Below, piece after piece: positions 47,616 through 50,828 of a DNA stretch of 64,000 bases. Origin of the DNA: Tomitella biformata AHU 1821. Lineage in GTDB: Bacteria > Actinomycetota > Actinomycetes > Mycobacteriales > Mycobacteriaceae. The DNA is taken from positions 1 to 64,000 of the forward strand of contig NZ_BAVQ01000022.1 of the NCBI RefSeq assembly GCF_000524475.1. The letters run 5' to 3'. The notes beneath the pieces were generated by a model. The model ran no database searches, was not told where the DNA came from, and was given only the letters and a program-made list of their open reading frames with translations. The translations under genes and the position numbers were made by a program. Within the stretch, counting starts at the first letter, position 1; the number at the start of each line of letters is the position of its first letter.

Positions 47616-48806
47616 ATGCCCCAAACGCTGCTCGCCGATGCCGCCAACCTCCTGCCAGACCTCGTCGCCCTGCGCAGAGCGCTGCACCACGAGCCCGAGC
47701 TCGGTCTGGAGCTGCCCAAGACCCAGGCGGCGGTCGTCGCCGCGCTGGGCGGCCTCGACCTCGAGGTCACCCTCGGCGAGGCCTGCACCTCCGTGGTGGC
47801 CGTGCTCCGCGGCGGACGGCCCGGCCCGACGGTGCTGCTGCGCGCGGACATGGACGCCCTGCCCATCGCGGAGCCTGCGGGACTGGAGTACGCCGCCACC
47901 AACGGCAATATGCACGCCTGCGGCCACGATCTGCACACTGCCGCACTCGTCGGCGCCGCCCGACTCCTCCATGCCCGACGCGCGGAGTTGGCCGGCGATG
48001 TCCTGTTCATGTTCCAGCCGGGCGAGGAGGGGTACGACGGCGCTGCGGTGATGCTCGCCGAGGGACTGCTGGAAACCACCGGCACCACGCCCATCGCCGC
48101 ATTCGCGATCCACAATGGCCCTGGCGAGCGCGGTGTCTTCTCCACCCGTCCAGGCCCAATCCTCGCGGGCAATGGCAGGCTTCAGGTCACCATCCGCGGC
48201 GCGGGCGGCCATGGCTCCCAACCGCATTCGGCCCGCAACCCGGTGCCCGCGGTCGCCGCGCTCGCGGGCGCCCTGCAGACCATGCTCACGCAGCGGTTCT
48301 CGGTTTTCGACCCGGTGGTCCTGTCCGTGACCCAGCTGTTCGCCGGGGAGGCCGTGAATGTGATCCCGGAGTCCGCCGGGCTCGGCGCCAGCGTCCGCAT
48401 GGTCTCCGCCGACGCGCAGGCCCGACTGGGCGAGGAGGTCCGCGTGTTCGCCGACGGCATCGCCGCCGCCCACGGTTGCACGGCCGAGGTCGACTTCACC
48501 CTCCAGTACCCGGTCACCGTGAACGACGCTGCGGCCACCAAGCATGCGATTGCCGCACTTTCCACGCTGCTAGGCGCGGAACGGGTGATCGAGATACCCA
48601 CGCCCGTCATGGGTTCGGAAGACTTCTCCCGGGTACTCGCCCAGGTGCCCGGCACGTACCTCTTCCTGCACTCCAGCCCGAACTCTGTGAACCCCGCAAC
48701 CGCAGCCGTCAACCACTCCCCGCACGTGCTATTCGACGACGCGGTGCTGGCCGACCAGGCCGCGGCGCTGGCGCATCTGGCGATGTCGACGTTGGCGGGC
48801 CGCTAG
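47616..48806 (+). CDS. M20-family amidohydrolase (N-acyl-L-amino-acid hydrolase-like)
   Basis: A 396-residue M20D metallopeptidase: LRRALHHEPELGLELPKTQ, LRADMDALPIAE, NMHACGHDLHTAALVGAARLL, FMFQPGEEGYDGAAVML (metal-bridging Glu), the lid domain with GGHGSQPHSARNPV, and PVMGSEDFSRVL. Members hydrolyse N-acyl amino acids, peptides or indole-acetyl conjugates. The expected metal ligands (Asp-Cys/His-Glu) are present. It lies 82 bp after the terminator; no strong ribosome site is seen. With the D-aminoacylase-like gene it points to amide conjugates (for example amino-acid conjugated acids) as substrates, an inference. Confidence 0.9.
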   Translation: MPQTLLADAANLLPDLVALRRALHHEPELGLELPKTQAAVVAALGGLDLEVTLGEACTSVVAVLRGGRPGPTVLLRADMDALPIAEPAGLEYAATNGNMHACGHDLHTAALVGAARLLHARRAELAGDVLFMFQPGEEGYDGAAVMLAEGLLETTGTTPIAAFAIHNGPGERGVFSTRPGPILAGNGRLQVTIRGAGGHGSQPHSARNPVPAVAALAGALQTMLTQRFSVFDPVVLSVTQLFAGEAVNVIPESAGLGASVRMVSADAQARLGEEVRVFADGIAAAHGCTAEVDFTLQYPVTVNDAAATKHAIAALSTLLGAERVIEIPTPVMGSEDFSRVLAQVPGTYLFLHSSPNSVNPATAAVNHSPHVLFDDAVLADQAAALAHLAMSTLAGR

Positions 48807-48852
48807 TTTGGTCCATTTCTCCGTGGTCGTCGGCGGCGTGCAGCTCTGCGGA

Positions 48853-49223
48853 TAGTCCTGCCGCGGGCCTACGTTCCGCGGGCAGACAACGCCCGTATCG
48901 CCCCAATCAGGAGCCTCGGACACCGCAAATCCCCCGGCGGACGAGCCCAGAATCGGGTGCCGCGGAAAAAGCCCAGGTGGCGCATGTGGTGGCGGCTGGT
49001 CAGCCTTCACCAACGGGGGGATTTTGGCCGTTCCCCCACAACAATCGCAGGTCAGGTGCCCGCTGGTGAAAATCCTGACCACGCCATTAGTCCGTTTTCC
49101 CAGGTCACAGCGAACACGGACCGGCACTGACCGCACGAGCGGGCGGAACCCCGTCCCCATCGCCTAGATTCCCGACCAAACGGGCATCGGGCGCCCGCGG
49201 AACGTAGGGGCCCGGCAGGACTA
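48853..49223. repeat. Non-coding 371-bp block with 31-bp imperfect terminal inverted repeats
   Basis: The region between the M20 gene (ends 48806) and the ligase gene (ends 49251) is the longest gene-free stretch in the window. Its ends, 48853-48883 and 49193-49223, are inverted repeats agreeing at 28 of 31 positions (TAGTCCTGCCG... and the reverse). A nested pair, GGTCAGnnTTCACCA near 49000-49016 and its inverse near 49062-49081, lies inside. There is no convincing coding frame, although a minus-strand frame with a CDCCGG motif crosses it. The form resembles a small non-autonomous mobile element or a very long hairpin between convergent genes; direct target duplications were not seen. Confidence 0.55.
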
Positions 49224-49250
49224 CCAACTACGACGTCGTGGCCATCGAGC

Positions 49251-50828
49251 TCAGTCCGCGGCGAGCACCGTCCGCAGCGCCCACGGATAGTCGGCCTTGC
49301 CACTGGGCGAGCGCTTGACCTCCTCCGCGAACACGACCACGCGCGGAATCTTGTAGCCGGCCACCTGGGTGCGGCAGTATTCGGTGAGCTCCTCGGGCGA
49401 GGCGCCGGAGTGGCCCTCCCGCAGGGCGACAGCAGCCGCGACTCGCTGACCGAACCGCTTGTCGGGGATGCCGACCACCAGCGCGTCGTACACCGCCGGA
49501 TGCGTCTTGAGCGCTTGCTCGACCTCCTCCGGGTAGATCTTCTCGCCGCCGGAGTTGATGCAGTTGGAGCCGCGGCCCAGGAGCACAATGGTGCCGTCGC
49601 CCTCGAGGATCCCGCGGTCGCCGAGCACTGCCATTCGGATGCCGTCGATCACCGGGAACGTCGACGCGGACTTGACCGGGTCCCCCCAATACTCCAGCGG
49701 CACATGGCCGCTGCGCGCGATGAAGCCCTCGATGCCGGGACCCACCGGCCGGAAGTCATTATCGACCAGCACCATGTTGGGATTGGACCGGATCCGCTTG
49801 GTGCCGTCGGCGGCGAACTCGACGATGCCGTCATTGCCGGTCTCGGAGGCGCCGAACGCGTCCTTGATCACCAGTCCTGGAACCCGCTCGCGCAGTTGGT
49901 CTTTCACGCCGGTAGAGAACAGTGCGCCACCGGAGCCCACCATCTTCAGCGAGGACAGGTCGATCTCGGGGTGCTGCTCCATCGCCTCGGCCAGCGGCCG
50001 CGCGATGCCGTCGCCCACCACCGTGATGCCGGTGACCCGCTCCGCCTCGATCACCCGGAGCGCCTCCACAGCGTCGAAATCACGCATGATCACCCGTCGC
50101 GAGCCGGCCAGGAACGCGGTCAGCAACGAATACACCGCGGCCCCATGCATCAGCGGCGGGACCAGTAGGAACACCGGCGCGGCAGAGTTCGCGACCGCGG
50201 CGGCCACCACTTCCTCGAGGGTCAGACGCGGGGGTCCGCTCGTGTTCGCGCCCGAGAGCGCCGCGAAGTAGAAGTCCTCATGTCGCCACACCACGCCCTT
50301 GGGGTAGCCCGTGGTGCCGCCGGTGTAGATGATGAATTTGTCGTCGGCGCTACGCGGCCCGAAGTCACGCTCGGGCGATTGCGCGGCGAGCGCGGGCTCG
50401 TAGCCCGCCGTGTCATCGGCCGCGGGCGCAGCAGAGTCGACCACCACCACGTGCCCGACGGTGGGGCAGCTCGCGAGCGCGGCGCGCGCCGCCGCCAGGT
50501 ACTCCGCCTCCACGATCAACGCCACGGCCTGGGAGTTGCCGTAGACGTGGACCAGCTCGGCCTCGACGTAGCGGTAGTTGACGTTGATCGGCACGGCCCG
50601 CACCTTCAGGCACGCGAGCACGCACTCGACGTACTCGATGCGGTTGCGCATGTGCACCGCCACGTGATCGCCCGGCCCGACCCCCACCGACTGCAGGTGG
50701 TGCGCGAGCCTGTTGGCCCGGACCTCCAGTTGCGCATAGCTGCGTTGCTCCGACTCACAGGTCAGGACGACGCGGTCTGGCACGGCGTCGGCCACCGACT
50801 CAAACAAGGTGGCGATGTTCAAAGTCAC
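49251..50828 (-). CDS. fadD19: Acyl-CoA ligase, FadD19-like (steroid side-chain acid type)
   Basis: A 525-residue adenylate-forming ligase. The N-terminus (MTLNIATLFESVADAVPDRVVLTCESEQRSYAQLEVRANRLAHHL) and the SPERDFGxRSADxxFIIYTGGTTGYPKGVVWRHED block closely follow FadD19, the C24-branched/steroid-24-oyl-CoA ligase of cholesterol and phytosterol degraders. KDAFGASETG, the LGRGSNCINSGGEKIYPEEVEQAL hinge and the PSGKADYPWA lysine complete the enzyme. The start is GTG 50828. Here it stands alone, divergent from a solute-binding protein gene. The identity rests on recalled family motifs; other steroid-acid ligases in the same subgroup remain possible. Confidence 0.8.
   Translation of the reverse strand: MTLNIATLFESVADAVPDRVVLTCESEQRSYAQLEVRANRLAHHLQSVGVGPGDHVAVHMRNRIEYVECVLACLKVRAVPINVNYRYVEAELVHVYGNSQAVALIVEAEYLAAARAALASCPTVGHVVVVDSAAPAADDTAGYEPALAAQSPERDFGPRSADDKFIIYTGGTTGYPKGVVWRHEDFYFAALSGANTSGPPRLTLEEVVAAAVANSAAPVFLLVPPLMHGAAVYSLLTAFLAGSRRVIMRDFDAVEALRVIEAERVTGITVVGDGIARPLAEAMEQHPEIDLSSLKMVGSGGALFSTGVKDQLRERVPGLVIKDAFGASETGNDGIVEFAADGTKRIRSNPNMVLVDNDFRPVGPGIEGFIARSGHVPLEYWGDPVKSASTFPVIDGIRMAVLGDRGILEGDGTIVLLGRGSNCINSGGEKIYPEEVEQALKTHPAVYDALVVGIPDKRFGQRVAAAVALREGHSGASPEELTEYCRTQVAGYKIPRVVVFAEEVKRSPSGKADYPWALRTVLAAD

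Follow-up and report, generated by a model that had tools for sequence, protein, structure and literature searches.

A probable MITE family of Tomitella biformata whose better-preserved copies share their outer ends with an IS1182-like insertion sequence

The closest described counterpart of the element analyzed here is MITEPye1 of Paracoccus yeei. MITEPye1 is gene-free and intergenic, has ends like those of the IS1182 family, is flanked by 4-bp direct repeats, and has a long stem-loop as its predicted fold; it is 159 bp long, and its copies are 96 to 100% identical (PMC11578231). The IS1182 family is among those that a second source describes as over-represented between convergent genes (PMC9208149). 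For IS1272, which is placed in the IS1182 family, and TnSha1, published accounts name terminator hairpins at gene 3' ends as the targets (PMC5678879, PMC4923244). In the open-licence literature, we found no MITE of the IS1182-like kind in Mycobacteriaceae. Software-predicted MITEs are described for Pseudonocardia and for bioreactor contigs, and the available passages of that report do not mention IS1182 (PMC12542641).

Here, we describe a new MITE family of this well-known kind in Tomitella biformata AHU 1821, which adds to Mycobacteriaceae a MITE family with a candidate partner insertion sequence. The Tomitella element resembles MITEPye1 in being gene-free and intergenic, in the ends that some copies have in common with an IS1182-like insertion sequence, in its predicted folding, and, at the copy L029, in a 4-bp duplication. 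Unlike the 159-bp element of the alphaproteobacterium with its 96 to 100% identical copies, however, it is about 450 to 480 bp long, its copies are 78 to 88% alike, and it has extra inner inverted arms and mostly decayed ends.

The window is a stretch of 64,000 nucleotides (contig NZ_BAVQ01000022.1, positions 1 to 64,000). A 371-bp block in it (48853..49223, plus strand) is flanked by convergent genes, which end at 48806 (+) and 49251 (-). Its inverted arms (48853-48883 and 49193-49223) match in 28 of 31 positions, as the original prediction had stated, while the best inverted 31-mer among 200 mononucleotide shuffles of the block reached 26 (mean, 20.5), and none of the 200 attained 28. With a repeat finder, the arms lengthen to 44 nt and are 82% complementary (left, 48853..48896, plus strand; right, 49180..49223, minus strand). 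A nested inverted pair had also been predicted. Indeed, a short 7-nt pair, GGTCAGG/CCTGACC, is present at 49050-49056 and 49074-49080, but the repeat finder listed no second pair of at least 12 nt within the block. Furthermore, the block had been regarded as the sole long noncoding stretch of the window. A rough gene caller does not bear this out, listing other gaps of 677 to 1,224 bp, although the comparison is loose because this caller misses some genes.

A blastn search of the strain's own assembly (G000; 4,707,889 bases, 112 contigs), a check suggested by the original prediction, revealed that the block belongs to a repeat family. Eleven copies, including that of the window, are spread over 10 contigs, and the other copies are 83 to 88% identical to the window copy. 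A sequence-only model built on a 143-column conserved stretch recovered the same 11 copies with 119 to 135 bits. All 11 retain the core, although several have a missing or changed right arm. Pairwise core identities range from 77.8 to 87.8%, and the divergence of the individual copies from the majority consensus is 8.1 to 13.8%. The tree of the copies, calculated from 340 columns after removal of the right arm and of mostly-gap columns, is star-like, with internal branches making up about 8% of the total length, a pattern as after a burst. No reading frame is free of stops across all copies: all six frames are stopped in every copy except L022, which alone has one open frame.

Homology among the copies continues beyond the 31-bp arms, which had initially been taken for the ends of the element. 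In L022, it extends 63 bp to the left and 25 bp to the right of the core, giving an element of 458 bp in total. L029, in which 43 bp are inserted and the right end is shortened, measures 478 bp; L024 measures 448 bp. The eye-catching 31-bp repeats are thus subterminal, not terminal. The outer repeat of the better-preserved copies is GNGSCTGTTGCCGAAT; this sequence or a near form of it was found in L022, L028 (left end), L029, and an insertion sequence on contig C34, while the window copy and the majority of the others have it in decayed form. The outer end GSCTGTTGCCGAATTC is exact in the copies on C29 and at C91:104 kb and has one mismatch in that on C41. Altogether, the left end is clear in 3 to 4 of the 11 copies, and both ends are recognizable in three (L022, L029, and L024). 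MITEs are generally under about 600 bp in size; these three copies measure 448 to 478 bp and contain no transposase gene.

Projected from L022, the window element covers approximately 48790-49248, and its outermost repeats are no longer recognizable. The probable left outer part (48790..48852, plus strand) is decayed and reaches into the final codons of the upstream gene; its similarity to the better-preserved copies was equaled by 1 of 2,000 random window pieces. The probable right outer part (49224..49248, plus strand) has kept CCAACTACGA while its outermost repeat is decayed, and its similarity to other copies gave a P value of 0.009 against random window pieces. In these comparisons, the references were chosen by eye (for the left side, L022, L028, and L029), and self-comparisons were left out. 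Across the whole family, the left outer homology was significant (P < 0.01 each; 2,000 random window pieces) in 8 of the 11 copies but not in L024, L025, and L027. The right outer 25 bp were significant in 4 of 11 copies, which are the same four that had been chosen as references.

When up to 3 mismatches to GSCTGTTGCCGAATTC were allowed, a scan of G000 yielded 101 places, versus 59 for the reversed control. Among the matches listed (up to 2 mismatches), two facing ends with 2 mismatches each lie 1.86 kb apart on C34. An insertion sequence of 1,863 bp is located there (G000:C34:42126-43988), with perfect 16-bp ends (GAGCCTGTTGCCGAAT) and a flanking TGCA/TGCA duplication. Thus, outer ends are common to some of the 11 dispersed copies and to this insertion sequence. 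The 539-aa ORF between its ends matches the Pfam families DUF772, DDE_Tnp_1, and DDE_Tnp_1_6, all above the cutoff. The putative partner resembles the IS1182 family in the combination of DUF772 with DDE_Tnp_1, in having IS1182 as the best NCBIfam match, and in its location between convergent ORFs (according to the ORF listing), a trend reported for this family among others (PMC9208149). However, the transposase scored 254.5 bits and did not reach the curated NCBIfam cutoff of 270, and we therefore call the partner IS1182-like only and do not file it in the family.

The insertion sequence has one full copy in G000. In addition, a decayed piece of it (77 to 79% identity) adjoins the MITE copy L028 on C29: at L028 1019-1303 (G000:C29:24018-24302), a decayed 5' piece lies beside the right side of the MITE, the right outer end of which is missing. 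Beyond the outer 16 bp, blastn revealed nothing that the MITE and the insertion sequence have in common, and it detected no counterpart of the inner left arm in the insertion sequence.

The perfect 16-bp ends of the insertion sequence also fixed the register in which target duplications were read. In this register, L029 is flanked by TGAA/TGAA (4 of 4 positions), L022 by GGTA/GATA (3 of 4), and L024 by TGTG/GGCC (1 of 4), the last being no duplication; the remaining eight copies are without one or both ends. When direct repeats had earlier been sought at free offsets, L029 and the insertion sequence had offered several options, whereas L022 and L024 had offered none.

These data bear on the question of which arms are the true ends. 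The inner 31- to 44-bp arms could be the ends of a MITE derived from another, now lost transposon, in which case the outer sequence would be flank or a further element. Conservation is highest in the inner left arm, and the three copies without significant left outer homology would fit this explanation. However, that homology persists in the eight other copies, and it is at the outer ends that L029 has its 4-bp duplication. Moreover, all 13 places in the assembly that match the inner arm with 3 mismatches or fewer (11 left arms and 2 right arms) fall within the 11 copies, so that no autonomous element with the inner arm was seen. We consider it improbable that the inner arms were the ends.

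The family was then sought in relatives. By blastn, the element had no match in four congeners (G001 to G004). The sequence-only model, applied to 201 genomes of the family, including that of the strain itself (best 15 candidates per genome, with stricter filters), found nothing else with at least 20 bits beyond the 11 copies; five other genomes had short matches of 18 to 20 bits, compared to 119 to 135 bits for the true copies. A search of 400 other family genomes gave short pieces of 26 to 51 bp in six and no match in the rest. This search scored 2 candidates per genome and recovered fewer matches in the strain's own assembly than blastn had; because its copies were under-recovered, the search is insensitive when taken alone, but the model search of 201 genomes supports its outcome. 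We dismissed the short matches in other genomes as chance. The inner-arm pattern was also searched among 84,980 species, where own-genome records were possibly left out. It occurred in two stretches, one in a Gammaproteobacteria MAG and one in a Mycobacterium MAG, which were likewise taken as chance because neither holds the element by profile search. Plasmid and phage collections contained no match to 48780-49260.

At the window site, G004 has orthologues of the two flanking genes side by side and convergent, with 74% identity each, and no element lies between them: the matched flank stretches are 195 bp apart in G004 versus 488 bp in the window. At 74% identity, this site is too diverged to reveal the exact empty target. 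In G001, G002, and G003, the flanking genes have their best matches at places that do not adjoin. At the L022 site, about 1.7 to 1.8 kb separate the orthologous flanks in three congeners, compared to about 0.83 kb in the strain. For L029 and L023, the best flank matches are not neighbors in the congeners, and G004 matched one flank only of the L029 site. Consequently, no clear empty site was found at the L022, L029, and L023 loci among the four congeners.

According to the original prediction, a mobile element would be refuted if all relatives carried one lone copy at one shared position. The opposite was seen, with 11 copies in the strain and no credible copy in the four congeners. Together with the G004 gene pair lacking the element, this supports the proposed miniature nonautonomous element, albeit with different ends. 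Empty sites and target duplications had been suggested as checks; G004 has the gene pair without the element, and the two flanks agree at 4 of 4 positions in L029, 3 of 4 in L022, and 1 of 4 in L024.

A further possibility is that the element took the place of a terminator hairpin without target duplication. In staphylococci, IS1272 is reported to replace stem-loops, and for IS1272 and TnSha1 the literature describes complete or partial deletion of the hairpin and no target duplication (PMC5678879, PMC4923244). Indeed, the G004 site contains a hairpin with a score of 15 (reached by 0 of 600 random window 151-mers), whereas no short hairpin in the window gap exceeds 7; this difference comes from one congener site at 74% identity. 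Beyond the orthologue of the right neighbor of L029, hairpins score 14 in G001, 10 in G004, 7 in G002, and 6 in G003, and many of the sites are convergent gene ends. Some stretches listed for the L022 and L023 sites had been placed only approximately and do not enter this comparison. We initially favored stem-loop replacement but abandoned it once 4-bp duplications emerged in one shared register. In contrast to IS1272 and TnSha1 as described, both the insertion sequence on C34 and L029 have duplications flush with their ends. Moreover, of the five other convergent window gaps measuring 30 bp or more, two contain hairpins of at least 12, one of them also scoring 15, showing that terminators are common in such gaps, and only one empty site is informative. 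Stem-loop replacement is accordingly a doubtful explanation.

The block is most likely part of a MITE of about 450 to 480 bp that was mobilized in trans by an IS1182-like insertion sequence and then decayed independently at each site, which would make it a counterpart of MITEPye1, for which a comparable relation to IS1182-family elements is proposed (PMC11578231). The transposase of such an insertion sequence would recognize the outer repeat GNGSCTGTTGCCGAAT and duplicate 4 bp of the target, and a single master element would have spread to at least 11 sites. The copies would then have decayed separately, many of them, including that of the window, losing their outermost repeats. The C34 transposase probably did the moving. 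Several observations speak against the MITE reading. The outer ends are recognizable in a minority of copies, what blastn finds in common with the insertion sequence ends at the outer 16 bp, the transposase scores below the NCBIfam IS1182 cutoff, and the best conserved stretch is the inner left arm. In addition, two lone ends of the same kind, on C102 and C104, are unaccounted for.

According to a rough gene caller, 6 of the 11 copies are located between convergent genes (L030, L022, L023, and L029, as well as L024 and L028, each of which has a neighbor at a distance of over 200 bp). Of the others, 4 have tandem and 1 has divergent genes on its sides. Measured against the convergent gaps in rough gene calls of one window, the excess has a binomial P of 0.002 by gap number and 0.07 by gap length; if only the four close convergent sites are counted, P is 0.07 by number and 0.42 by length. 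Since P rises with length weighting or with close neighbors only, the excess is not firm. We infer that copies lie near gene 3' ends because insertions are tolerated there, not because such sites are targeted.

The original prediction had offered a structured RNA or terminator region as an alternative. Selection could maintain such a functional RNA or bidirectional terminator, of any origin, in repeated form at the 3' ends of genes. The convergent location of six copies would suit it, as would the single-stranded RNA fold of the block, which is better than that of 100 shuffles (z = -4.7), and the uneven substitution rates over sites: a gamma distribution (alpha, 0.9) lifts the log-likelihood from -1887.7 to -1857.6, a gain of 30. 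However, covariation gives no support. The consensus fold of the 11 copies has a folding term of -95.21 and an unfavorable covariation term of +1.25 kcal/mol, with double changes in 7 of 94 pairs. Furthermore, no Rfam match was obtained in 48400-49700 up to an E value of 1, no promoter-like site was detected in 48700-49400, and the only terminator-like site there is a single 5-bp stem. Several copies have lost the right arm or have it in altered form, and conserved sites cluster only weakly (P about 0.04). We regard this alternative as rather unlikely.

Of the 15 best conserved 15-nt stretches among the core columns tested, 14 fall in the inner left arm. This may reflect constraint, or it may be an effect of the evolution of the master. 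Conceivably, the 371-bp core was co-opted as a transcript-end or RNA module after the spread of the MITE, so that the ends were lost and the core, mainly its inner left arm, was kept at gene 3' ends. If true, a miniature element would have turned into a transcript-end module; in view of the weak support for core retention, we see little chance of this.

Minor observations were made beside two copies and at the lone ends. The left flank of L021 (G000:C108:8135-8495) contains an 18-bp stem, CCTCTGCAGCGGTGGCAC/GTGCCACCGCTGCAGAGG, with GAATTC in the loop, at the place expected for the outer left end. The sequence TGTTTCACGTGGAACA, presumably similar to a ParB-binding parS site, adjoins the left side of L025 (G000:C111:149025-149360). 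The lone end GAGGCTGTTGCCGAATTC (L045 2408-2425; G000:C102:31907-31924), which has no facing partner among the matches listed, is perhaps a relic of a related element. The other lone end, GAGGCTGTTGCCGAATCG, is located at L044 2660-2677 (G000:C104:33659-33676), just upstream of a gene that, judged from its ORF, probably encodes a lipoate-protein ligase.
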